DNA of 64,000 nucleotides. Origin: Gemmatimonadota bacterium (lineage in GTDB: Bacteria > Gemmatimonadota > Gemmatimonadetes > Longimicrobiales > Gaopeijiaceae). Positions 8,780 through 45,601 of this stretch are shown one piece after another (positions within the stretch are counted from its first letter, which is position 1; every line of letters starts with the position of its first letter). Location of the stretch: contig JAJEBW010000048.1 of NCBI GenBank assembly GCA_022822325.1, positions 1 through 64,000 on the forward strand, read 5' to 3'. The notes under the pieces were generated by a model. It had not been told where the DNA came from. It was given only the letters and a program-made list of their open reading frames with translations, and did not search any database. A program made the position numbers and the translations under genes.

Positions 8780-9233
8780 ACTGCACAATCTACGGTGCCC
8801 GAAGGGTTCCCGGCGGGCGCGCAAGCGCGTTGGCCGGGGCGCTGGATCGGGCACCGGCAAGACCTCCGGACGAGGTCACAAGGGGCAGAAATCGCGCTCG
8901 GGCGGCCGGATCGCGGCGTGGTTCGAGGGCGGGCAGATGCCCTTGCAGCGGCGCATCCCGAAGCGTGGATTCAGGAATCGGAACCGGGTCGAGTACCAGG
9001 TGGTGAATGTCGGCGATCTTCGGTTCGTCGAAGGCGAGGTCAATCCGGAAAGCCTCCGGCGGGCGGGACTCGTTCGCACGCTGCGCACCCGGGTGAAGCT
9101 CCTCGGCGACGGAGTCGTATCCGGCGCTCCGCAGTGCTCGGTTCATGCGGCCAGCGCATCGGCCCGTGCCCAGATCGAGTCGGCGGGCGGATCTGTGACG
9201 ATTCTGCCCTGGCAGGGTGGAGAGGAGGGGTAG
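8772..9233 (+). CDS. rplO: 50S ribosomal protein L15
   Basis: Late-assembly large-subunit protein. It has the RKRVGRGAGSGTGKTSGRGH glycine-rich start and GGQMPLQRRIPKRGF, both diagnostic, and a C-terminal globular domain (RVKLLGDGVV onward). Length is 153 residues. It is followed 7 bp later by secY. Confidence 0.97.
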   Translation: MIELHNLRCPKGSRRARKRVGRGAGSGTGKTSGRGHKGQKSRSGGRIAAWFEGGQMPLQRRIPKRGFRNRNRVEYQVVNVGDLRFVEGEVNPESLRRAGLVRTLRTRVKLLGDGVVSGAPQCSVHAASASARAQIESAGGSVTILPWQGGEEG

Positions 9234-9240
9234 AACCGGC

Positions 9241-10554
9241 ATGGCCAATCCGATCCCGAATCTGTTTCGGGCTCCCGAGCTGAAGAGCAAGATCCTCTTC
9301 ACGCTCTTCATCATGCTGATCTACCGGGTCGGGTCGCACATCACCGTGCCCGGCGTCGACGTTCAGGCGCTCCAGCAGCTCGCGGGCCAGTTCTCGCAGA
9401 CCTTCCTCGGCGTCTACGACATGTTCGTCGGGGGTGGACTGAGCCGGGCAACAATCCTGGCGCTGGGAATCATGCCGTACATCTCGGCGAGCATCATGTT
9501 CCAGTTGATGGCGGCGGTCTTCCCCACCGTCGAGAAGCTCCAGAAGGAAGGCGAGGAGGGACGGAAGAAGCTCACCCAGTGGACCCGCTACACCACCGTC
9601 GGGCTCTGCCTGATCCAGGCCTACGCCTACGCCAACTTCCTCCAGGGACTGGGCAGCGCGGTCCCCTCTCCGGGGCCCCTCTTCGCCTTCACCACGGTGG
9701 TCACGCTGACCGTCGGCGGCGTCTTCGTGATGTGGCTGGGCGAACAGATCACCGAGCGAGGGGTGGGAAACGGCATGTCCCTCATGATCTTCTTCTCGAT
9801 CATCCAGGGTTTTCCGGGCGCCGTCATTCGCACCTGGGAGTCGTTGATGTCCAACGAGATCAGTGTCTTCGCGCTGATCGTGCTGGTGGGAATCCTGGTG
9901 GGCATCACCGCCGGCGTCGTCGGCATGACCATGGCGGCCCGCAGGATCCCCGTGCAGATTCCGCGGAAGGTGATGGGGCGGGGGCGGATTCGCGAGGGCC
10001 AGAAGAGCCACATCCCCTTGCGGATCAACTCGGCCGGGGTCATGCCGATCATCTTTGCGCAGTCCTTCATCGTCGTTCCGGGGACCATCGCGGCGTTCAG
10101 CACCATCCCCGTGGTCGAGGATCTGGCGGCCATCTTCCAGCCGGGCAACTGGGCGTACTACATCACCTACGCGATTCTGATCATCTTCTTCACCTATTTC
10201 TACACCGCGATCATCTTCAATCCGGTTGATCTGGCGGAGAATCTGAAGAAGCAGGGCGCCTTCATTCCCGGGGTCAAGCCCGGCGCGCGCACCGCCGAAT
10301 ACATCGACCGCATCCTCACTCGCGTCACCCTGCCGGGATCGATCTATCTGGCCTTCATCGCCCTGGTGCCCTTTCTGATCTTCGACGCCTTCGGAATCCA
10401 GAACTTCGCCTTCGGAGGAACGAGTCTCCTGATCGTGGTGGGCGTGGGCCTCGATACGGTCCAGCAGGCGCAGCAACACCTCCTGCTTCGGCACTACGAC
10501 GGCTTCATGAAGAAGGGACGCGTGAAGATGCGCGGCCGCCAGCGCTACATGTAG
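9241..10554 (+). CDS. secY: Protein translocase subunit SecY
   Basis: Channel-forming subunit of the inner-membrane Sec translocase, working with SecE and SecG and with the SecA encoded at 22.5 kb. At 437 residues it has the usual ten hydrophobic segments. The start is LFRAPELKSKILFTLFIMLI, followed by the plug region after TM1 (FVGGGLSRATILALGIMPYI). The cytoplasmic C5 loop carries basic residues near AARRIPVQIPRKVMGRG, and a GGTSLLIVVGVGLDTVQQ segment precedes the basic tail. ATG 9241 is the start. It sits between rplO and adk, as in other spc operons. Confidence 0.98.
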   Translation: MANPIPNLFRAPELKSKILFTLFIMLIYRVGSHITVPGVDVQALQQLAGQFSQTFLGVYDMFVGGGLSRATILALGIMPYISASIMFQLMAAVFPTVEKLQKEGEEGRKKLTQWTRYTTVGLCLIQAYAYANFLQGLGSAVPSPGPLFAFTTVVTLTVGGVFVMWLGEQITERGVGNGMSLMIFFSIIQGFPGAVIRTWESLMSNEISVFALIVLVGILVGITAGVVGMTMAARRIPVQIPRKVMGRGRIREGQKSHIPLRINSAGVMPIIFAQSFIVVPGTIAAFSTIPVVEDLAAIFQPGNWAYYITYAILIIFFTYFYTAIIFNPVDLAENLKKQGAFIPGVKPGARTAEYIDRILTRVTLPGSIYLAFIALVPFLIFDAFGIQNFAFGGTSLLIVVGVGLDTVQQAQQHLLLRHYDGFMKKGRVKMRGRQRYM

Positions 10555-10568
10555 GGACGCGGGGAATC

Positions 10569-11240
10569 TTGACTACCGTTACCGGACCGGTCGTGGTTCT
10601 CCTCGGGTCGCCCGGGGTTGGCAAGGGCACGCAGGGCATGCGCCTTGGCGCATCGCTCGATTGGGCGCATGTGTCGACCGGCGATCTGTTGCGGGCGGCT
10701 CGGCGGGAGGGAACGGAGCTGGGGGTCAGGGCGAAGAGATTCATGGATCGCGGCGATCTGGTTCCCGACGAGGTGATGATTGGGCTCGTGCGCGACCGCC
10801 TGGCGGCGCTGGGATCGAAGCGCGGGGTGATTCTGGACGGTTTTCCGCGCACGGTCGGGCAGGCCGAAGCGCTTGAAGGGATGCTGGAGAGGGAGGGGCG
10901 GTCGGTCGCCCGGGTGGCGCTCCTGGAAGCCGATGACCAGCTTCTCGTCAGGCGCATTTCGGGACGCCGGTCCTCGCCCTCGGGACGGGTCTACAACATC
11001 CACTACGACCCTCCTCGCCGGGAAGGAGTCTGCGACGACACCGGGGAGCCTCTGATTCATCGTCCCGATGACAGCCCCGGGACGGTACGCGCCCGGCTGG
11101 CCGTCTACCGGGAAACCACCGAGCCGCTCATCGGCCACTACGAGCGGCGGGGCGTTCTGGCGCGGGTCAATGGCGACGGCACGATCGATGAGGTGCAGAC
11201 CGAACTGCTCGCCGCGTTGGAAGCGGAAGCGCGGCCCTGA
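10569..11240 (+). CDS. adk: Adenylate kinase
   Basis: Cytosolic enzyme converting ATP and AMP to two ADP. It has the P-loop GSPGVGKGTQG (about residues 14-24), the AMP-binding STGDLLRAARREGTELG and LDGFPRT, and the LID domain (GRVYNIHYDPPRREGVCDD). The LID lacks the four-Cys zinc site. Length is 223 residues. The start is TTG 10569 behind GGGGAATC; no ATG lies before the P-loop. Part of the secY-adk-map segment. Confidence 0.97.
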   Translation: MTTVTGPVVVLLGSPGVGKGTQGMRLGASLDWAHVSTGDLLRAARREGTELGVRAKRFMDRGDLVPDEVMIGLVRDRLAALGSKRGVILDGFPRTVGQAEALEGMLEREGRSVARVALLEADDQLLVRRISGRRSSPSGRVYNIHYDPPRREGVCDDTGEPLIHRPDDSPGTVRARLAVYRETTEPLIGHYERRGVLARVNGDGTIDEVQTELLAALEAEARP

Positions 11241-26575: not shown

Positions 26576-29395
26576 ATGTTCTCCACCCGCCCCGTTCTCC
26601 GGCTCGCCCTCGCCTTCCTCCTCCTCGCGCCCCCGGCCGCGGCCCAGACGCCCGACCCGACGGCCCCGATTCCCCCCGATCCGGCGGTCGTCCGCGGAAC
26701 GCTGCCCAACGGACTGACCTACTTCGTCCACGCCAACGACCAGCCCGAGAATCGCGCCGCGCTGCGTCTGGTCGTCGACGCGGGCTCGATCCTGGAGGAG
26801 GACGATCAGCTTGGTCTGGCCCACTTCGTCGAGCACATGGCCTTCAACGGCACGCGCAACTTCGAGAAGCAGGAGCTGGTGGACTACCTCGAATCGATCG
26901 GCATGCGCTTCGGTCCCAGCGTCAACGCCTACACCAGCTTCGACGAGACGGTGTACATGCTGCAAGTGCCGATGGACGATCCGGAGGTGATCGCCACCGC
27001 CTTTCAGATCCTGGTGGATTGGGCGGGAGGCATCCTCTTCGATCCGGAGGAGGTGGACAAGGAACGCGGCGTGATCATCGAGGAGTGGCGGGGCCGGCGC
27101 GGCGGCATGGCGCGGGTTCAGGACGAGCAGATTCCGATGATGCTCCACGATTCGCGCTACGCCGAGCGGCTTCCGATCGGGGATCCCGAGATCGTGCGGA
27201 CCGCCCCGGTCGAACGTTTGCGCACCTTCTACGAGGACTGGTACCGCCCCGATCTCATGGCGGTGGTGGCGGTGGGCGACTTCGACGCCGCCGAGATGGA
27301 AGCGATGATTCGGGAGAGCTTCGCCGGCCTGCAGGGTCCGGACAGTCCGCGCGCCAGGACCGAGGCGGAAGTCCCCTGGGACCACCCGCCGCTCGTTTCG
27401 ATCGCGACCGATCCCGAAGTGCCGGTCAACCAGGTGCAGGTGATGTACAAGCAGCCACTGCGGGAATACGCCACCGTGGGCGACTTCCGCAACGCCCGCA
27501 TCCGTTCGCTCTACACGGGAATGCTGAACCGGCGGCTCAGCGAGCTGACGCTCCAGGCGGATCCGCCCTTCCTCAATGCCTCTGTGGGTCTGGGCGGCGG
27601 GATCTCGCGCAACATGAATGCCGCGCAGGTCTCGGTCGGCGTGGCGCCGGGTGGAGTGGCGCGGGGATTGGAGGCGGTGCTGAGCGAGGCCGAACGGGTC
27701 GCGCGCCACGGCTTCACCGCCGGCGAGCTGGAGAGGCAGAAGACCTCGCTGCGGCGCGTGTACGAGAGCAGGCTGGCCGAGGTGGAGAACCGCGAGTCGG
27801 GCGGGCTGGCCAGTCGCTACGTCGGCGTCTTTCTGGAAGACGCTCCCTACCCCGCCGTCCAGACCGAGATGGAGCTCCTGGACGCCTTTTTGCCGGGCAT
27901 CGCCCTGGAGGAGGTCAACGCCGCCGGGCGGGAGTGGCTGGATGAACCCGGACGAGTGATCCTGGTGACGGGTCCCGACAGGGAAGATGTGGAGATCCCG
28001 ACCGAGGCCGAGGTGACCGGCGTCTTCGCGACGGTGGCGGGCAAGGAGATCGCTCCCTACGAGGACTCGGAGGTCGAGGCCCCCCTGGTGGCGGAAGTTC
28101 CCGCCGGTTCGACCGTTGTGGCGGAGGAATCGGTGGACGAGGTCGGGGTGACCATCTGGCGCCTTGGCAATGGGGTGCGGGTCGTTCTCAAGCCGACGGA
28201 TTTCAAGGACGACGAGGTCGTCTTCTCGGCGCGGAGTCCGGGCGGGACCTCGCTGGCCACCGACGAAAACTTCATGGACGCGGAGATCGCGACCCAGGCT
28301 GTGGCGCAGGGGGGCGTCGGAGACTTCGACCAGATCGCGCTGCGCAAGAAGCTGACGGGGAAGCGGGCGTCGGTCTCGCCTTCGATCGGAGGGCTCAGCG
28401 AAGGATTCAACGGCCGGGCGTCGCCGCAGGATCTGGAGACCGCCTTCCAGCTCGTCTACCTGTACTTCACGGCTCCCCGCCGTGACGAGAGCGCCTTTGC
28501 CGCCTTCAAGGCCCAGATGGCGGCGGTCGATCCGGGCGCCATGCCGCAGTTCGTCCTCCTGGATACGATCGCGACCACCATGAGCCAGGGGCACCCCCGC
28601 GCCGGAGGCACCTTGGCCGACCAGATGGAAGCGATTCAGGCGGCGGATCTGGATGCGGCTCTGGACTTCTACCGGGATCGCTTTGCGGATGCTTCCGATT
28701 TCACCTTCTTCTTCGTGGGCGCCTTCGAGCTTGAGGGGATTCGGCCTCTGGTCGAGACCTGGCTGGGGGCGCTTCCCGATCTCGGCCGGGTCGAGTCCTG
28801 GGTCGATCTCGGAATCGATCCTCCCACGGGCGTGATCGAGAAGTTGGTGCGCAAGGGAGTCGAGCCGCAGAGCCAGACCCAGATCTTCTTCGTGGGCGAC
28901 GGCGAATACTCGCTGGAGGAGGCGACCACGATCCGCGCGCTGGCCAGCATCCTTCGCATCCGCCTGCGCGAGCTCCTGCGCGAGGACATGGGCGGCACCT
29001 ACGGAGTCGGCGTTTCCGGTTCGCTCTCCGACCGGCCCGACGACGAGTATTCGATCACCATACAGTTCGGGTCGGATCCAGAGCGGGCAGAGGAGCTCGC
29101 CGAGGTGATCTTCGAGGAGATCGAAAGGCTGAAGGAAGAGGGACCGGACGCCGAGACGGTGGCCAAGGTGCGCGAAACCGACCGCCGCTCCAAGGAGACC
29201 AACCTCGAGGAGAACGGGTACTGGCACGGACAGTTGCGGGCCTATGACGAGGCCGGAATGGACTTCCGCGAGATTCCGAAATACGACCGGATCGAGGGCT
29301 GGACCGCCGAGCAGGTTCGCCAGGCTGCGATTCGCTATCTGCGCACCGACCAGTACGCCCGGTTCGTACTGTTGCCGGAGCCGAAGGTGCCGTAG
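26576..29395 (+). CDS. M16 family metallopeptidase, secreted (pitrilysin type)
   Basis: Zinc peptidase of 939 residues made of two tandem M16 halves. The N-terminus is a cleavable signal peptide (about residues 1-23, ending PPAAAQ). The inverted zinc motif HFVEH is at residues 83-87 in GLAHFVEHMAFNGTRNF, with the third ligand expected in the EVDKERGVIIEEW helix. The second half begins near residue 520 (VTIWRLGNGVRVVLKPTDFK) and is inactive in the usual way for this family. Periplasmic location is inferred. Start ATG 26576; the gene is monocistronic or heads the next two. Confidence 0.93.
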   Translation: MFSTRPVLRLALAFLLLAPPAAAQTPDPTAPIPPDPAVVRGTLPNGLTYFVHANDQPENRAALRLVVDAGSILEEDDQLGLAHFVEHMAFNGTRNFEKQELVDYLESIGMRFGPSVNAYTSFDETVYMLQVPMDDPEVIATAFQILVDWAGGILFDPEEVDKERGVIIEEWRGRRGGMARVQDEQIPMMLHDSRYAERLPIGDPEIVRTAPVERLRTFYEDWYRPDLMAVVAVGDFDAAEMEAMIRESFAGLQGPDSPRARTEAEVPWDHPPLVSIATDPEVPVNQVQVMYKQPLREYATVGDFRNARIRSLYTGMLNRRLSELTLQADPPFLNASVGLGGGISRNMNAAQVSVGVAPGGVARGLEAVLSEAERVARHGFTAGELERQKTSLRRVYESRLAEVENRESGGLASRYVGVFLEDAPYPAVQTEMELLDAFLPGIALEEVNAAGREWLDEPGRVILVTGPDREDVEIPTEAEVTGVFATVAGKEIAPYEDSEVEAPLVAEVPAGSTVVAEESVDEVGVTIWRLGNGVRVVLKPTDFKDDEVVFSARSPGGTSLATDENFMDAEIATQAVAQGGVGDFDQIALRKKLTGKRASVSPSIGGLSEGFNGRASPQDLETAFQLVYLYFTAPRRDESAFAAFKAQMAAVDPGAMPQFVLLDTIATTMSQGHPRAGGTLADQMEAIQAADLDAALDFYRDRFADASDFTFFFVGAFELEGIRPLVETWLGALPDLGRVESWVDLGIDPPTGVIEKLVRKGVEPQSQTQIFFVGDGEYSLEEATTIRALASILRIRLRELLREDMGGTYGVGVSGSLSDRPDDEYSITIQFGSDPERAEELAEVIFEEIERLKEEGPDAETVAKVRETDRRSKETNLEENGYWHGQLRAYDEAGMDFREIPKYDRIEGWTAEQVRQAAIRYLRTDQYARFVLLPEPKVP

Positions 29396-29492
29396 CGGAA
29401 GGGGCTTGCCCGATGCATCTCCGGGGACGTGGCGTTGTCCGCCTTTGGCGCACGGGCCCGGCGCGAGTGAGCGGATTTCCGAAGTTCCGCCG

Positions 29493-31415
29493 ATGACGAG
29501 ATCGCGGTCGGCGCGGCGGGAGCGGATCCGCGTACGGGTCCTTCCCGATCACGACAGCATCGCGCGCGAGGTGGCCGGACGGATTGCCGATCTGATCCGG
29601 GAGCGGGCCCGCGAGGGGCGCAACGCCGTCCTGGGCCTCGCCACCGGCTCCACCCCGCTCGGCGTCTACCGCGAGCTGATCCGGCTGCACCGCGAGGAGG
29701 GGCTTGACTTCGCGAATGTGGTCGCCTTCAACCTCGACGAGTACTTCCCCATGCGGCCCGGCAGCATTCACAGCTACCACCGCTACATGCGCGAGAACCT
29801 CTTCGACCACATCGACATCCCCCTGGCCCGCCGCCACATTCCCCGCGGCGATCTGGCGGAGACCGAGGTGGAATCGCACTGCGCCGACTTCGAACGACTC
29901 ATTCGCGAGGCGGGTGGAATCGACCTGCAGATTCTGGGGATTGGACGCAGCGGCCACATCGGCTTCAACGAACCGGGTTCGATGCGCGATTCGCGGACTC
30001 GGCTCCTCTATCTGGACTCGGTGACGCGGTCGGATGCGGCGGCCGATTTCTTCGGCGAGGAGAATGTGCCTCCGCAGGCGATCACCATGGGCGTTGCCAC
30101 GATTCTCGAGGCGCGCGAGGTGATCCTGCTGGCGACCGGCGAGCACAAGGCGCCGATTGTGCGGCGTTCGGTCGAGGGAGAGGTGCACGCCGACGTGGCC
30201 GCGACCTTCCTCCAGCAGCACCCCTCCGCGACGGTCTATCTGGATCCGGCCGCGGCCGCCGAGCTCACGCGCATCCGCACGCCCTGGCTGGTGGACGAGG
30301 TCGTGTGGACGATGCGCATGGAGACCGATGCCGTGATCTGGCTCAGTCAGCGCACCGGGAAACCGATCCTTCACCTCGCGACCGACGATTATCGCGAACA
30401 CCACCTGGCCTCGCTGGTCTCGCGGTACGGATCGGCCGAGCCGCTCAACGGCCGGGTCTTCACCTCGCTCATGGCCAGGATCCGCGGGAAGAGCCGGTTG
30501 CCGCGCGGACACAGGATCCTCGTCTTCTCGCCCCATCCCGACGACGATGTGATCTCCATGGGCGGACTGTTGCGGAAGCTGGTCGAGAATGGCAACCGCG
30601 TCGCCGTGGCCTACCAGACCTCGGGCAATATTGCGGTGTTCGACCATGAGGTGCGTCGCTATCTGGATTTCATGCGGCGGGCGGCGCGAATTCTGGAGCC
30701 GTCCGGAATGGGGGATCTGACCGACCGGATCGGCGCGGTCGAGCGCGAGCTGACGAGGAAGGAGCCCGGCGAGATCGATTCGCCTGCGGTTCAGGATCTC
30801 AAGCGCGCGATTCGCGAGAGCGAGGCCACGGCGGCGCTGGAGACGCTGGGGCTGCCGAAGGCCAGGGGACGGTTCCTCGATCTCCCCTTCTATCGCACCG
30901 GCCAGGTCCGCAAGAACCCGATCGGCGCGGCCGACGTCGAAGTTGTGGCGCGGCTGCTCGAAGAGGTGCGTCCCGAGATGGTCTTTGCCGCCGGCGATCT
31001 CTCCGATCCGCACGGAACCCACCGCATGTGTCTGGAGACCGTGGAGCGCGCGCTGGAGGGGTACAGCGGTCCGCCGCCCTGGGTCTGGCTGTATCGCGGC
31101 GCCTGGCAGGAGTGGGGCGTGAGCGAGGCGACCGTTCTGGTTCCCCTTTCGGATGGCGAGCTGCACGGCAAGGTTCAGGCGATCTTTCGGCACGAGTCGC
31201 AGAAGGACTCGGCGCCCTTTCCGGGGTCCGATCCGCGCGAGTTCTGGCAACGGGTCGTCGATCGCAACCGCGCGACGGCCGATCTGTTGCGCACCCTCGG
31301 GTTGCCGGCCTATCGTGCCATGGAAGCCTACCGGGTCACCCGCGATGGGCGTCCGGCGAAGGCGGGCGAGATTCCGGGTCCGGTTCCGGGCGGAGGCGAA
31401 GAGGCGGCGAAGTGA
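29493..31415 (+). CDS. Glucosamine-6-phosphate deaminase-like domain fused to LmbE/PIG-L deacetylase domain
   Basis: A 640-residue two-domain protein, probably cytosolic since no signal is seen. Residues about 10-265 are NagB-like: ATGSTPLGVYRELIRLHRE, Asp82 in NLDEYFPM, and GIGRSGHIGFNEPGS with His155 and Glu160. The position equivalent to the catalytic Asp141 of the Escherichia coli enzyme (GND-GHIAFNE) is Ser153 here. Residues about 340-560 are LmbE-like: SPHPDDDVISMGG with His348, and the HGTH metal site near residue 507. The same fusion is known from Bacteroidota. Amino-sugar deacetylation and deamination is the likely role, but the exact reaction is not certain. Confidence 0.85.
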   Translation: MTRSRSARRERIRVRVLPDHDSIAREVAGRIADLIRERAREGRNAVLGLATGSTPLGVYRELIRLHREEGLDFANVVAFNLDEYFPMRPGSIHSYHRYMRENLFDHIDIPLARRHIPRGDLAETEVESHCADFERLIREAGGIDLQILGIGRSGHIGFNEPGSMRDSRTRLLYLDSVTRSDAAADFFGEENVPPQAITMGVATILEAREVILLATGEHKAPIVRRSVEGEVHADVAATFLQQHPSATVYLDPAAAAELTRIRTPWLVDEVVWTMRMETDAVIWLSQRTGKPILHLATDDYREHHLASLVSRYGSAEPLNGRVFTSLMARIRGKSRLPRGHRILVFSPHPDDDVISMGGLLRKLVENGNRVAVAYQTSGNIAVFDHEVRRYLDFMRRAARILEPSGMGDLTDRIGAVERELTRKEPGEIDSPAVQDLKRAIRESEATAALETLGLPKARGRFLDLPFYRTGQVRKNPIGAADVEVVARLLEEVRPEMVFAAGDLSDPHGTHRMCLETVERALEGYSGPPPWVWLYRGAWQEWGVSEATVLVPLSDGELHGKVQAIFRHESQKDSAPFPGSDPREFWQRVVDRNRATADLLRTLGLPAYRAMEAYRVTRDGRPAKAGEIPGPVPGGGEEAAK

Positions 31416-36341: not shown

Positions 36342-38387
36342 ATGACTGCTGCCGCACAGAGCGGGAGAACCGCGCAGAGCAGGAGAATCGAGCATCTGAG
36401 CCTGCCCGAAGAGCTCGTCCTGATGCTCCTGAACGAGGAAAACGGGTATTTCCACCAGGTGCCCGGGTGGAAGCTGAACTGTGCGATCGTCGGCGCGGTG
36501 CTCGCGGAGCTCTCTCTTCTGGAGCGCATCGATACGGATCTGGAGTCGCTCTTCGTCGTGGACGACAGGGAGACGGGCGACCCCGCCCTGGATCCGGTCC
36601 TGCGGGAGATCGCGGCGGAAGCGAAAACGAGGAATGCCCGCTACTGGATCGAACGGCTCGCCCTTCGCGCGGAATCGATCATCGATCTGACCCTGGACCG
36701 GCTGGTGCGGGAGAAGGTTCTCGAACACCACGAAGGCGAGTTCTGGACGCTGGCCCGCACCGCCTGGCAGCCCGACCCCTTTGCCAGGCCCCGGGAAGTT
36801 TCCGTTGGCCACTTCATACGGACGCGGATCAGCAACCTGATTCTGACGGACATGATTCCCGATCCGAGGGGTGTCCTGATCGTCTGCCTCGTCAACGCCT
36901 GCGATGTCTTTCGCTTCATGTTCAAGCTCGACGACGAGGCGGAGGAGCGCATCGAATTCATCTCCCGGATGGCCCTCATCGGCCGGTCCATTGCCGAAGC
37001 GATCGCCCACAACGCCTCCGGACCATTGCTCCGGCGCTCGCACCTGACGAAGCGAATCCCCACGATCAGGCTTCCGGAGTTGCTGCGCAGCCCCCATCTG
37101 CGAAATGGCAACCTGCCGGCGCTCCTTGCCGAACTGGCCACCAGGCATGGTCCCGTCTACAAGTTGCGCGTGCCCTGCGCCGAGCCCATGACCTTCCTCG
37201 CCGGACCGCAGATCAACCACTGGGCGAACCGGCACGGACGGATGTACCTCAGGGCCAGGGACTACTTTGCCGACTTCGAGCAGGCCTATGGCGCCTCCGG
37301 CGTGCTTCCGTCCCTGGACGGCGCCGATCATTTCCGGCTTCGCAAGGCCATGGCGCCGGCGTATTCGCGCAGAAGGCTGCAAAGCCAGGTGGATCAGCTC
37401 TACCGCCATGCCCGCCGATACATGGCCGCCTGGAAGGTGGGCGAATCCTACTCCGCGCGGCGGATGTGCCGACGGATGATCAATGCTCAGCTCTCGCCCA
37501 TGTCGGTGAGCGTCGATTCGCAGGACATCTTCGACGACCTGATGAAATACAAGGAGCGCGCGCTCAACGTCCATGTCCTGCGCGTGTTGCCGGAGCTTGC
37601 GCTGAGAACTCCGGGGATGAAGCGCAGGGCAGCGGCGATCGACACCCTTCTGAGCCGTGTTCAGAGCGTCCATACGCCGGCGCAAAGGGCGGGTTGCCCG
37701 CGCAACCTCGCCGACGACGTGCTTGGCCTCAACGCCAGCGATCCGCAGTTGGTGCCGGAATCCAACATGCGCTTCGCACTGTCCGCGGCCCTGATCGCCA
37801 GCGTCTATCTTGGCGACGCCTTCAGCTTCGCGATCTACGCCATGGCGTCGCGACCGGAGCACCATGCCAGGATTCGGGCCGAAGCCGACGCGTTGTTCGG
37901 CAAGGGCGATCCCGATGGCGACGCCTTCACCAGGGAGGCGGTGGACGTCACGCAACGCTTCGTGACGGAGTGCCTGCGCATGTATCCGATCGTCCCCGTG
38001 TCGGTGCGAAATGTGATGAACACCTGTGTCGTGGAGGGTTGCGAACTGCCCGTGGGGGGACGGGTCCACATCGCCCAGACGGCGTCTCACTACCTGGAGG
38101 AGGTCTTTCCGGATCCCTTCGCCTTCGATATCGACCGTTACCTGGCGCCGCGTCATGAGCATCGCGGTCCCGGGTACGCCCCGTATGGGGTAGGCACGCA
38201 CAGGTGCCTTGGCTTTCGCTGGATGGAGCTCCAACTGATGATCAACCTGCTGATGGTCGCGCACCACTTCACCCTTGAGGTGGATCCGGCCGACTTCAGG
38301 CTGCGGTTCGATCCGCTTCCGTCGATGAAGCCGAGCAGGAAGCTGAAGTTCCGCGTCGCCGAACGGATTCGCGAGCCGAAGGTCTGA
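36342..38387 (+). CDS. GPP34 (GOLPH3/Vps74-like) domain fused to cytochrome P450
   Basis: A 681-residue fusion. Residues about 16-225 resemble the GPP34 family of phosphoinositide-binding proteins: LSLPEELVLMLLNEENGYFH, LNCAIVGAVLAELSLLERID and the helical RLVREKVLEHHEGEFWTL. From about residue 238 (RIPTIRLPELLRSPH) the chain is a P450. ExxR is Glu543-x-x-Arg546 (TECLRMYP), and heme thiolate Cys622 is in PYGVGTHRCLGFRWME. The heme loop has Tyr where Phe is usual. The I-helix lacks the acid-Thr pair (LGDAFS, residues 490-495). No transmembrane anchor or signal is visible, so the GPP34 part may place the enzyme on a membrane. No redox partner lies nearby. ATG 36342 is chosen; an in-frame ATG exists at 36255. 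Confidence 0.85.
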   Translation: MTAAAQSGRTAQSRRIEHLSLPEELVLMLLNEENGYFHQVPGWKLNCAIVGAVLAELSLLERIDTDLESLFVVDDRETGDPALDPVLREIAAEAKTRNARYWIERLALRAESIIDLTLDRLVREKVLEHHEGEFWTLARTAWQPDPFARPREVSVGHFIRTRISNLILTDMIPDPRGVLIVCLVNACDVFRFMFKLDDEAEERIEFISRMALIGRSIAEAIAHNASGPLLRRSHLTKRIPTIRLPELLRSPHLRNGNLPALLAELATRHGPVYKLRVPCAEPMTFLAGPQINHWANRHGRMYLRARDYFADFEQAYGASGVLPSLDGADHFRLRKAMAPAYSRRRLQSQVDQLYRHARRYMAAWKVGESYSARRMCRRMINAQLSPMSVSVDSQDIFDDLMKYKERALNVHVLRVLPELALRTPGMKRRAAAIDTLLSRVQSVHTPAQRAGCPRNLADDVLGLNASDPQLVPESNMRFALSAALIASVYLGDAFSFAIYAMASRPEHHARIRAEADALFGKGDPDGDAFTREAVDVTQRFVTECLRMYPIVPVSVRNVMNTCVVEGCELPVGGRVHIAQTASHYLEEVFPDPFAFDIDRYLAPRHEHRGPGYAPYGVGTHRCLGFRWMELQLMINLLMVAHHFTLEVDPADFRLRFDPLPSMKPSRKLKFRVAERIREPKV

Positions 38388-38426: not shown

Positions 38427-41400
38427 TCAGGAGGGCGCGGGGGCGAGGGTCCGACCGGAGCGGGCGCCGGCGCGCCGGTTCTTCCAGCGCAGGTGAATCG
38501 AGGACAGCGCGGGCACCAGGAACATGAGGATGGCGGTGGTGAAGAGGATGCCGCAGCCGACCGACGCCGAGAAGGGGACGAAGAACTGCGCCTGAATCGC
38601 GTCTTCCAGAATCAGGGGCATGAAGCCGAGGAAGGTGGTCAGCGAGGTGAGCATGATCGGGCGGAAGCGGCCCTTGGCGCCCTCGATGATCGCCTCTCGC
38701 ACGGGGCGGCCCTCCTCGAGCTCCTGGTCGATGAAGTCGATCATCACCAGGGAGTCGTTCACCACCACGCCGGCGAGGCCGAAGATCCCGATGAAGGACT
38801 CCGAACTCAGGGCGACGCCCAGGACCCAGTGACCCAGAATCACCCCGATGAGCCCGAAGGGGACGACGGCCATGATGATGAACGGCTTGGTGTAGGAGCC
38901 CAGCGGGATCGCGAGCAGCGCGAAGATCAGGATCATGGCGATCCCGAACCCGGGCCCCAGCGCGTTCATGGATTCAAGCTGTTGCTGTTGCTCGCCTCCG
39001 AAGGTGTAGCTCAGCTCCGGGTCCCCGGCGACGAGCGGCGCGAGGATGTCGTCTTCCAGAACGGCATTGGCCTGCCCGCCGGAGATCACCGCCGGATCCA
39101 CATCCGCGCTTACCCGGACAACGCGCTGGCCGTCCTGGCGATGGATGGCGGTCGGCGACCTGCCGGAACTCAGCGAAGCCACGCGGCTCACCGGTACCTC
39201 GGCGCCGGTGCCCGTCCGGACCAGCGAGCTCTCGATGTCGGTGATCGAGTTGCGTTGTTCCGCGGGCAGCCGCACATACACGCGCACCTCTTCGCGGCCC
39301 CGCTGCACCCGCAGGGCTTCCACGCCGAAGAAGGCGGCCCGCGTCTGTCCGGCGAGGTCGTCGAGGGTGAGACCCAGCGTTCGCGCCGCAGGCAGCAGGC
39401 CGAGCTGGATTTCGGGGATGCCGGGGGTAACGTCGGAGCGTATGTCGTGGACGCCGCCCACCTCGCGGAGGCCGTTGACCACGGAGGTCGCGATCCCCGG
39501 GAGGCGCTCGGGATCCGGATGCGACAGCACGGCCTCGACGGGGTTGCCCAGGTCGTAGATCTGGCCGCTGATGGTGATCGCGCGCGCATGGGGCAGGACG
39601 CCGACTTCCTCGCGCCACGCCCGCACGACATCGCCCGTGGGAATCCGCCGGCGCTCCGCGTCCAGGAGCTTGAAAGCGATGGTGGCGACATTGGCCTCCG
39701 GGTTCAGGTTGGGATTGGGACTGAGTCCCCCTCCCTCGATCCGCGGCCGTTGACCGACGGTAATCGTGACCCCGGAAAGGAGAGGGGGCGCGTCGGCGGG
39801 CCGGTTTTCGGAGACGCGTTCGATGGCCCGGTGGCCGGCCGCCTCCAGCTCCCGCGCCACCTCCCAGGTCTGTGCGGCCGTCGTCCCGTCCGGCATCTCC
39901 AGCGTCGCGGTTGCGAAATCGCCTTCGACCTCGGTGGCAAAGGTGAACGGAACGATGCCGGCCGGCAGCATGGCAAAGCACAGGATCAGCAGCGCCACGG
40001 CTGACGAGAGCGTCACTCCGGGCCGGTCGGTTGCGAAGGTCACCCCGCGATGCAGCGGGCCTCGCACGAACCTCGCCAACAACGAATCGACGCGACCCTG
40101 AATCCGGGCAACCAGTCGCCCCGGGCGCGTCCGGGGCGCCCAATCGGGGCCGTGGAGATGGTGCGACAGGTGGTTGGGCAGCACCAGCAGCGATTCGACC
40201 AGCGAAATCACCAGCATTGCGATGACGATGGTCGGCAGCGCCCTCCAGGTCTGTCCGACCCCCCCGGGAATGAAGAGCAGAGGGGAAAAGGCGGCTATCG
40301 TGGTCAGCACCGCGAAGATCAGCGGCACCTTGATCCGGCGCGCGCCGCGGATCGCCGCGAGGACGCCCGGCGTGCCCTTCATTCGTTCCAGGTGGATGTG
40401 CTCCGACACGACGATCGCATCGTCCACGACGACCCCGATGGCGAGGACGAACGAGAAGAGGGAGACCGCGTGGATCGCCAGGTCGAAGGCCATCATGACG
40501 GCCAGGGCGCCGATCCCCGAAACCCCGAGACCGACGGCCACCCAGAAGGCCAGCCGGAGTTCGAGGAACAGTCCCAGAGCGATCAGCACGAGCAGGAGCC
40601 CGAGAAGGCCGTTTTTGACGAGGATGGCGGCGCGCTCCTCGAAGGCATCGGATTCGTCGTTCCAGATGGTGATGTTCACGCCGTCCGGCAGATGAGGATT
40701 GACTTCGTCGGCGACGTGCTCGCGAACGGCTCGCGCCACATTCATCACCTTCTCGCCCTCGGCCCTGGAGACCTCGACGAAGACGGCCGGCAAACCCTGG
40801 TGCCGGACGATCAGATCGGTGGCCTGGAATCCGTCGCGCACTTCGGCGACGTCGCCCAGACGGACGACCGTGCCGTCGCCGCGGCTCAGCAGCACGATCT
40901 CCTCGAAGTCCTGTTGATCGTAGCTCTGCCCCAGGGTGCGCACCCGGACCTGGGACTCTTCCGTGTCGATGCTGCCTGCGGACAGGTCGAGGGAGCTGCG
41001 GCGAACCGTGTGGGCGATATCGGTCAGGGTGAGCCCGAGCGCCCGCAGCCGCTGCCACGGCACCTCGATCGAGATCTCGTAGTTGCGCACGCCGCTGGTT
41101 TCGACCTGGGAGACGGAGGGCAGCGCGGCGAGCTCGTCCTCGACGCGGTATGCGAGCTCCTTCAATGCCCGCTCGCTCACGTCGCCGTACAGGATCAGGC
41201 GCATGACGCTCTGGGCGTTGGTCATCTCCCTGATCCGGGGCCGTTCGGCTTCGCCCGGGAAAGTCCGGATTCGGCCGACCGCCGCTTCGACGTCGGCCAG
41301 GGCGTCGTTCATGTCCGTGCCCGCACGCATCTCCACCCTCACCGACGCCATGCCCGGGGCCGCCACCGACCTGACGGCCTTCACCTTGCCCAGCCCTTCG

Positions 41401-41639
41401 ACCTCGTCCTCGATCCTGGCGACGATGGCCTCCTCCACCTCCTCGGGGGTGGCGCCCGGATAGGCGACGGAGACCTCCACCTGATTGAAGGGCACGGTGG
41501 GCCACGCTTCCAGCTCCAGCCCGAAGAACGAAGCCACGCCCGCGACGAGAATGCCGATCATCAACAGATTGGCGGCGACGCCATTGCTCGCCATGTAGGC
41601 GATCGGGCCCGACAGCTCGTCCTTGTTGGTGGATCTCAT
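38427..41639 (-). CDS. RND efflux transporter, inner-membrane subunit (AcrB/HAE-like)
   Basis: Proton-driven multidrug-type pump, 1070 residues with twelve expected membrane segments in two repeats. TM1 follows SGPIAYMASNGVAANLLMIG. The periplasmic porter region starts AWPTVPFNQVEVSVAYPGAT. The proton-relay Asp pair is visible in TM4 (IGVVVDDAIVVSEHI), and GIFGLAGVVVNDSLVMID is the matching part of the second half. The ATG at 41639 is used; a GTG at 41651 is a longer option. No adaptor (MFP) or outer-membrane channel gene is adjacent. Confidence 0.94.
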   Translation of the reverse strand: MRSTNKDELSGPIAYMASNGVAANLLMIGILVAGVASFFGLELEAWPTVPFNQVEVSVAYPGATPEEVEEAIVARIEDEVEGLGKVKAVRSVAAPGMASVRVEMRAGTDMNDALADVEAAVGRIRTFPGEAERPRIREMTNAQSVMRLILYGDVSERALKELAYRVEDELAALPSVSQVETSGVRNYEISIEVPWQRLRALGLTLTDIAHTVRRSSLDLSAGSIDTEESQVRVRTLGQSYDQQDFEEIVLLSRGDGTVVRLGDVAEVRDGFQATDLIVRHQGLPAVFVEVSRAEGEKVMNVARAVREHVADEVNPHLPDGVNITIWNDESDAFEERAAILVKNGLLGLLLVLIALGLFLELRLAFWVAVGLGVSGIGALAVMMAFDLAIHAVSLFSFVLAIGVVVDDAIVVSEHIHLERMKGTPGVLAAIRGARRIKVPLIFAVLTTIAAFSPLLFIPGGVGQTWRALPTIVIAMLVISLVESLLVLPNHLSHHLHGPDWAPRTRPGRLVARIQGRVDSLLARFVRGPLHRGVTFATDRPGVTLSSAVALLILCFAMLPAGIVPFTFATEVEGDFATATLEMPDGTTAAQTWEVARELEAAGHRAIERVSENRPADAPPLLSGVTITVGQRPRIEGGGLSPNPNLNPEANVATIAFKLLDAERRRIPTGDVVRAWREEVGVLPHARAITISGQIYDLGNPVEAVLSHPDPERLPGIATSVVNGLREVGGVHDIRSDVTPGIPEIQLGLLPAARTLGLTLDDLAGQTRAAFFGVEALRVQRGREEVRVYVRLPAEQRNSITDIESSLVRTGTGAEVPVSRVASLSSGRSPTAIHRQDGQRVVRVSADVDPAVISGGQANAVLEDDILAPLVAGDPELSYTFGGEQQQQLESMNALGPGFGIAMILIFALLAIPLGSYTKPFIIMAVVPFGLIGVILGHWVLGVALSSESFIGIFGLAGVVVNDSLVMIDFIDQELEEGRPVREAIIEGAKGRFRPIMLTSLTTFLGFMPLILEDAIQAQFFVPFSASVGCGILFTTAILMFLVPALSSIHLRWKNRRAGARSGRTLAPAPS

Positions 41640-41665
41640 GGCGCGCGCCACTCTTCGTCAGCGGG

Positions 41666-43488: not shown

Positions 43489-44415
43489 TCAGCCCTCCGG
43501 CTCCGCGAAGGCGCTCTCCGCCAGCCGCTCCTTGTACCACTCCGGGAATCCTTTGGTGACCAGCGCCTGGAAGCGCCGCTCGAAGTGCTTCCAGAGACGG
43601 TCCTTGATCTCGTCAAGGCACTCCTCGCGCACGTCCTCGCGGATATGGCGGATGATCTTGCCGATCTCGACCGGAGTGCCGCCCTCGATCATTCCCTCTG
43701 CCAGGAGCCCGTTCACCACCTTCTCCCACCGCACCGGCCCGGAGACCGATTCCGCCAGCGCCCTGATGAACTCGGTCTGCTCGGTGCGCTTCCATTTCGG
43801 GTTGACGGCGTGGGCCTCCTTGAATCTCTCGGAGACGTACTTGGCCCGGATCGGCAACCCGTCCTCGCCGAAGATGGGGGCGTCCGCGACGCGCTTGACG
43901 ACCACGCCCTCGATCTTCGGGCCGCCCAGAAAGGACTCCAGCTCCAGCAGCTCCTTCAGCCGGGCGGAACTCGAGAGCGTTCCCTGGTAAAGCCGGGGCA
44001 CCGCCTCGATTCCGAGCCGTTCGGCGATGCGGGCCTTCTCTTTGTAGCCGATGTACGCCTCCGTTCCGGCGTCGACGTCGAAGAGCGCGATGTGGCCCTT
44101 CGGCACCCGTCCGTAGACCAGGGTGTTGTGCCGGGGCCGGCTGACCGCCTCGCCGCGATAGACGACGCCGGGGGCGAGCAGGCCCTCGTTGGCCATCTTG
44201 CGGATGGTGGCGACGGAGGCCGCGAAGAGGTTCGGCGGTTCGTCGAGATCGAGTTCGAGCCGCTTGGAGCGGACCGACAGGCGCGGGGGATCGTCCACCA
44301 GCCCCCAACTGATCTGCGAGCCGTCCACCTTCTCCTCGACGACGACCGGTTTGTCGAGCAGGCCCTGGGTGGCTCGGTGCCCGAGCGCATGAGTCTTTCC
44401 GTAGCGTCCAACCAT
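43489..44415 (-). CDS. RNA ligase family protein (T4 Rnl2-like)
   Basis: ATP-dependent RNA ligase or related nucleotidyltransferase, 308 residues. Motif I is EEKVDGSQISW with the adenylated Lys29, then YRGEAVSRPRHN, ALFDVDAGTEAY, motif IV IEGVVVKRV and motif V IRAKYVSERFKE. A helical C-terminal domain follows (about residues 210-308). The ATG at 44415 is 7 bp behind GGAGGGG. The protein lacks fused kinase or phosphatase domains, so an RNA end-healing partner would have to act in trans. Not near a toxin or Pnkp/Hen1 gene. Confidence 0.88.
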   Translation of the reverse strand: MVGRYGKTHALGHRATQGLLDKPVVVEEKVDGSQISWGLVDDPPRLSVRSKRLELDLDEPPNLFAASVATIRKMANEGLLAPGVVYRGEAVSRPRHNTLVYGRVPKGHIALFDVDAGTEAYIGYKEKARIAERLGIEAVPRLYQGTLSSSARLKELLELESFLGGPKIEGVVVKRVADAPIFGEDGLPIRAKYVSERFKEAHAVNPKWKRTEQTEFIRALAESVSGPVRWEKVVNGLLAEGMIEGGTPVEIGKIIRHIREDVREECLDEIKDRLWKHFERRFQALVTKGFPEWYKERLAESAFAEPEG

Positions 44416-44509
44416 TTCCAATCCCCTCCCGCTCCTTGAAGCGCCGCCGCGTCCGGAAGGATGCGGAGCGCGCCCGCACTGCGCCGCCGCGAGTGGCCCT
44501 TGCCTCCGG

Positions 44510-45364
44510 TTACCGCTTCAGCTCGATGGTGCGGTCGTGGAGCGGCTGGACCGGACGGGCGTTCATCGGATGAATGGCCGCGAAGGCGTCGATCTGGTCC
44601 TGCGAAATGGCAATCGATTCGGTCATGACCACCCAACTGACGATTTCGGAGCAGGGCGGGGTGGTGAGCGAACCGGGGTAGCGGAAGTGGCTGGCCCCGG
44701 CGGGAAGGAGCGCGCGCGGATCGAAACCGGCCAGTCTTCCGGGAGCGTCGCCCGGGGCCGGGATCGCGTCCCAGATCGCCTGAATGGAGGGATCGGCCTC
44801 GCCCGCCTCCATGAAAACTCCGATGACGGCGAGATCGCCCTCGGCGGCGGCATGCACGAAATGGAGCTCCAGCGGGGTGGCGGCGCCCTCGATGGTGTGC
44901 TCGCCGGGGGTGTGGAAGTGGAACTGGACAAGGTGGAAGTCGCGTCCCTCGAGGGTGATCGCGCTGCTCTCGGGCACATTCACCTGGGTGGTGTGGTCGT
45001 TGTCCACGACCTCGGCGTCGGCGCTCTGCCAGCGCACCTCGAGCTCGGCCGCTCCGCCATCGACCGCCCCCGCGATATCGACCGGGGACTGCCGCATGCC
45101 GCTGTCGCAGATGGCGAAGGAAGGATCGAGAGAGCCCCGCATCGCGGAGCCGGCGTCGCCTTCGTAGGACCAGTGGACCGCGCCGCCGGTCTCCTCTTCG
45201 TGCTGATCGTCCATTGCGGTCTCCTGGTCGGTTTCGTAGCCCTGGTCGCCCCGGCATCCTGGCAGGGCGAGGGCCAGGGCGAGCGTCGCGAGGACCGTGC
45301 CGGAAAGGGGGGTGGGCGCGCAGGGACCTCCTGCCGTGTGGGCGAATGGCGGCTGCGATGTCAG
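44510..45364 (-). CDS. Alpha-type carbonic anhydrase, exported lipoprotein
   Basis: Zinc enzyme for CO2 hydration in the periplasm. The zinc histidines are in VQFHFHTPGEHTIEG (HxH) and LELHFVHAA, and SLTTPPCSE and GMRQSPVDI match the family. An exported form is suggested by LATLALALALPGCRG, a signal with lipobox LPGC, before an acidic linker. No ATG, GTG or TTG lies close upstream; CTG 45364 is used here, a TACAAT lies just before it, and the true start is uncertain. Gap to the RNA ligase is 94 bp. Confidence 0.8.
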   Translation of the reverse strand: MTSQPPFAHTAGGPCAPTPLSGTVLATLALALALPGCRGDQGYETDQETAMDDQHEEETGGAVHWSYEGDAGSAMRGSLDPSFAICDSGMRQSPVDIAGAVDGGAAELEVRWQSADAEVVDNDHTTQVNVPESSAITLEGRDFHLVQFHFHTPGEHTIEGAATPLELHFVHAAAEGDLAVIGVFMEAGEADPSIQAIWDAIPAPGDAPGRLAGFDPRALLPAGASHFRYPGSLTTPPCSEIVSWVVMTESIAISQDQIDAFAAIHPMNARPVQPLHDRTIELKR

Positions 45365-45601
45365 CGAACATTGTAAGTGCGCCCGTGGCCGAAGGGTAGT
45401 GCGTGCGGGGGCGGCGCCCGCTTCCCGGCGCAGGCCGGCCGGGCATAGCTCCCCCTTTCGGGATCGGTCGATTCGTTGCCGCCGCGGACGCCTGTCCCCT
45501 CGTCCTCCGGGACCGCCATGCTCCCCGCCGCGGCCGCCGGAGCGTCCTGTCGTCACTTCGGGCCCCGCCTTGCTTCCCGCTTCCCGGCTGTACATTCATT
45601 C

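Follow-up and report, generated by a model that had tools for sequence, protein, structure and literature searches.

A GPP34-cytochrome P450 fusion linked to sterol genes in apparently sponge-dwelling bacteria

What might a bacterium do with a single protein in which a GPP34 (GOLPH3/Vps74-like) domain is followed by a cytochrome P450? The gene for such a protein lies in the window, the 64,000-nucleotide stretch of Gemmatimonadota DNA that was analyzed (contig JAJEBW010000048.1). An earlier note on this DNA was aware of no fusion of this kind, and apparently none is described: a literature search for GPP34 together with P450 returned nothing but work on insecticide resistance or on Bt insecticidal proteins, with no bacterial link between GPP34 and P450 among the papers searched.

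The fusion protein

The frame is stop-free from its ATG to its stop and encodes both domains on one chain (Table 1). The PF05719 match scored 112.5 bits (cut-off, 29.1) and covered profile positions 1 to 199 of 201, while the PF00067 match scored 110.5 bits (cut-off, 22.8). In a profile search of the PDB, the GPP34 part matched GOLPH3 (7.5e-9) and Vps74 (4.5e-7). With both Pfam matches far over their cut-offs, the earlier note's uninterrupted frame of GPP34 and then P450 is borne out, and its positions for ExxR and the heme cysteine were exact. It had also named two observations that would count against a fusion, the lack of a GPP34 match and a stop or frameshift between the parts; PF05719 matches, and the frame is open. 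The AlphaFold model (pLDDT 78) reached a TM score of about 0.8 to solved P450s, including CYP184A1 and Methylococcus capsulatus CYP51, indicating a P450 fold. The architecture, which the note had proposed to seek in other genomes, was found on one chain in 72 full-length homologues from other genomes, among them metagenome-assembled genomes (MAGs) assembled as single chromosomes. The fusion is therefore real and not an assembly join.

Table 1. Features of the fusion gene and its convergent neighbor in the window
Feature	Position	Strand	Evidence
GPP34-cytochrome P450 fusion gene	36342..38387	+	681 aa; 72 full-length homologues
GPP34 (GOLPH3/Vps74-like) domain, residues 21-222	36402..37007	+	Pfam PF05719, E = 3.7e-32
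Cytochrome P450 domain, residues 243-659	37068..38318	+	Pfam PF00067, E = 1.2e-31
I-helix motif A486-S-V-Y-L-G-D-A493 replacing (A/G)GxDT	37797..37820	+	72/72 subfamily members
K-helix ExxR (E543-R546, ECLR)	37968..37979	+	Invariant in alignment A1
Heme-ligand Cys622 in YGVGTHRCLG	38205..38207	+	Invariant in alignment A1
AcrB-type RND transporter	38427..41651	-	ACR_tran, E = 6e-162; convergent with the fusion

The canonical acid-alcohol pair (D/E-T) of the P450 monooxygenase I-helix was absent from the 72 aligned sequences, which have V488-Y489 instead. In this alignment of subfamily A, residues Y489, G491, and D492 were invariant (72/72), indicating that the I-helix site is under selection. 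Where the paralogues of subfamily B have GLDTT, subfamily A has V488-Y489-L490-G491-D492, and the alignment puts a one-residue deletion, common to subfamilies A and C, at the motif. A Y-x-G-D that follows a deletion in every member points to atypical chemistry. The invariant Tyr489/Asp492 pair may take over from the standard proton relay; alternatively, the reaction may be something other than an ordinary monooxygenation.

In human GOLPH3, residues W81, R90, R171, and R174 contact phosphatidylinositol-4-phosphate (PI4P). The profile alignment to human GOLPH3, like the family alignment, places P41, V50, E111, and I114 at these positions, so that none of the four pocket residues is kept, and PI4P targeting of the fusion was rejected on this ground. 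The earlier note had suggested that the GPP34 part brings the P450 to a specific membrane lipid or presents a lipid substrate to it; a lipid-related role is supported, and the replaced contact residues speak against delivery to PI4P. Judged by its domain family alone, the GPP34 domain may dock the chain at the cytoplasmic face of the membrane without PI4P, and such docking would let the P450 reach a sterol resident in the bilayer. With this fusion, a GPP34 domain of bacteria acquires a specific role that can be put to the test.

Carriers and gene neighborhood

The homologue scan covered one genome per species and gave 75 loci. The 72 full-length homologues, at 54 to 82% identity, all come from MAGs and are labelled as about ten phyla. 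The carriers are apparently sponge-dwelling bacteria, as read from MAG names and partly from papers; the Nitrospirales genus bin75 is described as mainly sponge associated (PMC11812461), and one carrier (locus L008) is named Nitrospira sp. bin75. The fusion subfamily was present in 40 of 395 sampled Gemmatimonadota genomes, mainly those of the window's own genus and of a few further genera, with most genera lacking it. It was also present in about 22 of 301 sampled genomes of the Chloroflexota, to which G010 (the source genome of locus L012) belongs.

Identity to the window protein was 50 to 51% in some genomes of its own genus, whereas a Latescibacterota protein reached 72%, and fusion pairs from different phyla reached 75 to 78%. 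This pattern fits transfer of the fusion between phyla, with paralogy as the alternative, on a tree whose deep branches are weakly supported and with several MAG labels that look inconsistent. Several apparent cross-phylum near-identities (L009 with Gammaproteobacteria, L031/L071 with Binatota, and L042) probably reflect such labels and were not taken as transfer. Carriage by viruses was rejected: a pattern scan of IMG/VR found no relative, and the phage search gave only a distant 24% P450 match. Plasmids yielded only two distant GPP34 matches.

The same genomes hold a wider family, comprising paralogous GPP34-P450 fusions of subfamilies B (32 to 36% identity) and C (41 to 43%) as well as GPP34 proteins that stand alone (about 40%); the window's own genome encodes one of these. 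Fusion paralogues stand in tandem at L052 (9.5 to 12.1 kb) and L039 (10.2 to 11.5 kb). Subfamily B fusions are followed by an acyltransferase-3 gene at L097:7895-14426 and L096:7883-11140, with an RND transporter added at L097. In two Acidobacteriota genomes, a paralogous fusion is immediately adjacent to a gene of the squalene-hopene cyclase (SHC) type (L116:6893-9304 on the minus strand with 8896-10905, also minus; L124:9920-12358). An internal TGA in some paralogous fusions (G339, G186, G199, and G100) suggests decayed copies or sequencing errors.

Neighboring frames were clustered over a set of 76 loci, and representatives were identified by Pfam. Five families recur around the fusion: a Rieske gene with a KshA_C domain (54/76 loci), a sterol C24-methyltransferase (SMT; 38/76), an FAD oxidoreductase of the amine-oxidase type (37/76), an AcrB-type RND gene (36/76), and an MMPL gene (29/76). 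The MMPL genes fall into two families, and sterol-sensing and Patched domains occur in one of these. The Rieske, SMT, and FAD enzymes, singly or together, were encoded within about 8 kb of the fusion at 67 of the 76 loci, and an RND/MMPL transporter was found at 65. The Sterol_MT_C domain was present on 14 of 14 sampled SMTs. The cluster Rieske protein matched KshA_C at 5e-24, with KshA as its best match among solved structures, and its [2Fe-2S] and mononuclear iron motifs were conserved in 14 sequences. The MMPL neighbors weakly resemble HpnN and HAE3. These linked sterol-specific genes, found across phyla, place the fusion in a bacterial sterol gene cluster.

Similarity across loci tracks that of the fusion, with r values of about 0.73 to 0.75 for the Rieske and FAD proteins and 0.50 for the SMT. 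The Rieske and FAD values are as expected if these genes often travel with the fusion; shared ancestry of the carriers would have the same effect. In the 395 Gemmatimonadota genomes, 33 had both fusion and SMT, 7 the fusion only, 4 the SMT only, and 351 neither (Fisher P = 8e-37, a value that ignores relatedness). The SMT thus accompanied the fusion in 33 of 40 carriers, in 25 of these 33 within 10 kb. Across the 48 carrier genomes, an SMT scored over the cut-off in 35. In Nitrospirota and Chloroflexota, the surroundings of the fusion also encode a conserved 303-aa probable membrane protein without a Pfam match (L035:11361-12269, with relatives in L059, L049, and L050).

The window's own genome (94% complete) is a reduced case, with the fusion linked to the RND gene only; an SMT, a KshA_C domain, a cyclase, and an orthologue of the cluster Rieske protein were all looked for there and not found. 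Elsewhere in the window, one frame (29244-31415) resembles, by eye, a glucosamine-6-phosphate deaminase with a PIG-L/LmbE-type deacetylase after it, and two others resemble, again by eye, an RNA/DNA ligase (43489-44421) and an alpha-type carbonic anhydrase (44510-45595).

Source of the sterol and proposed role

At the Nitrospira loci L008 and L035, a single-chain squalene epoxidase-oxidosqualene cyclase (SQE-OSC) with the DCTAE motif and a CYP51 with AGQHTS are encoded within 18 kb of the fusion. L008 adds SMT and Rieske genes, and L035 adds an FAD gene and an ERG4/ERG24-family gene. The L059/L127 locus resembles these two, and the AGQHTS P450 was seen in L008, L035, and L127. The separate CYP51 indicates that the fusion is an additional, second sterol-locus P450. 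A CYP51 identity of the fusion itself was rejected, since the canonical enzyme is present separately in the same loci; the fusion P450 has no AGxHTS-type I-helix, and CYP51 was not closest to it by similarity. SQE-OSC single chains were found as frames of 1130 to 1223 aa in Nitrospirota, Chloroflexota, and Gemmatimonadota MAGs (L008:13045-16713, L035:12430-15864, and L122:10262-13654, all on the minus strand, and L121:7163-10750), with DCTAE in all and the Pfam identification made on L008.

The PF13243 cyclase cut-off was passed by 19 of 48 carrier genomes. All 13 cyclases that were fetched and examined by motif were SHCs (DxDD), and the OSC-type DCTAE was found in 5 of the 48 genomes, a count from which MAG incompleteness could hide some cyclases. 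The cyclase profile scan detected neither kind in G003, G004, and G014, three MAGs that each assembled into one chromosome. The idea that carriers must in general make sterols de novo was rejected because the motif-examined cyclases of most cyclase-positive carriers are SHCs. The presence of a recognizable sterol cyclase in so few carriers indicates that most probably remodel acquired sterols, which is the best reading for them.

We consider it fairly likely that the fusion is a membrane-associated tailoring enzyme for sterols, or closely related triterpenoids, in sponge-symbiont bacteria, and it probably reworks sponge sterols. The P450 substrate would be a bilayer sterol acquired from the sponge, or one of the cell's own in those few carriers that synthesize sterols de novo. 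Together with the Rieske oxygenase and the SMT, the P450 would modify the sterol, introducing one change in either its side chain or its rings, and the RND/MMPL pump may shift substrate or product between the membrane, the envelope, and the outside. More tentatively, the cluster may be a horizontally shared module of sponge symbionts of many phyla, combining host-sterol uptake, alkylation by the SMT, Rieske oxidation, and an atypical reaction of the GPP34-tethered P450.

The resemblance of the Rieske protein to 3-ketosteroid 9alpha-hydroxylase could instead mean steroid catabolism, in which the KshA-like Rieske protein, the P450, and the FAD gene start the degradation of host sterols for carbon, much as Actinobacteria break down cholesterol; PMC5790920 deals with steroid degradation in host-associated metagenomes. 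We regard this as unlikely, given that the locus holds an SMT, which builds side chains instead of degrading them, that SQE-OSC and CYP51 occur in the Nitrospira loci and a sterol reductase in Chloroflexota, and that the conserved neighbor families scanned included neither ring-cleavage genes nor Mce-type uptake genes. Slightly less probable again is an action on hopanoids or other bacterial triterpenoids and not on sterols. The sterol-specific C-terminal domain of the linked methyltransferases argues against it, as does the lack of a cyclase of either kind in many carriers (among them the window's genome and the three single-chromosome MAGs), although it would agree with the cyclase domains (SHC or sterol type) over the cut-off in 19 of 48 carriers, the SHC motif in 13 of 13, the paralogous fusions adjoining SHC genes, and the weak HpnN/HAE3 resemblance.

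Least probable by far is that the P450 part is a nonenzymatic heme-binding or sterol-sensing module and GPP34 the working part. The acid-Thr pair is gone in all 72 sequences, as such a module might allow, but invariance extends over ExxR, the heme-Cys loop, and many further residues, and some working P450s also lack the I-helix Thr. As a putative sterol-tailoring enzyme, the fusion marks symbiont sterol loci across phyla and points to remodelling over de novo synthesis in most carriers. The maker of the side-chain-alkylated sterols of sponges, and hence the meaning of 24-isopropylcholestane fossils, is contested. If the module is indeed shared among symbionts, part of the unusual sterols of sponges, including fossil biomarkers, would come from bacteria unable to make sterols.

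Comparison with known systems

GOLPH3 and Vps74 have the domain profile in common with the fusion, which differs in being bacterial, joined to a P450, and altered at the PI4P-contact residues. SCO4440, a GOLPH3-like protein of Streptomyces, is likewise a bacterial GPP34 protein; in the passages of PMC12402492 consulted, its gene lies beside a D-Ala-D-Ala carboxypeptidase gene and is linked to wall-deficient cells, and no P450 or sterol context is given there. CYP184A1/CYP102-type P450s are nearest to the fusion among solved structures in both sequence and fold, at 15 to 20% identity and without a GPP34 domain, and in the alignment with 7wzl this type has a conventional I-helix motif, unlike the fusion. 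The CYP51-ferredoxin of M. capsulatus shares with the fusion the bacterial P450 fold, a sterol locus, and the joining to another domain. It is only about 20% identical in the structural alignment, and the fusion carries GPP34 instead of ferredoxin and lacks AGQHTS.

Sponge-symbiont CYP51 is known from ERG24-CYP51-ERG7 clusters (PMC9531527), and the main text of that paper discusses CYP51, has P450 in one reference title only, and does not contain GPP34. The main text of PMC10070321 mentions neither GPP34 nor P450. The clusters of both papers may nonetheless include the fusion unannotated. Those of PMC10070321 combine an SMT with an sdmA homologue (Rieske type) and sterol synthesis genes, and symbiont SMTs act in vitro (PMC10070321). 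The fusion loci are similar in occurring in apparently sponge-associated bacteria and in linking an SMT with a Rieske-type sterol gene, whereas the fusion carriers are mostly without a sterol cyclase. New here is a second, atypical, GPP34-tethered P450 in symbiont sterol loci, most of whose carriers have no sterol cyclase. Relative to the first reading, which covered one genome, the additions are the sterol locus in many phyla, the noncanonical I-helix, and a larger family of GPP34-P450 fusions.
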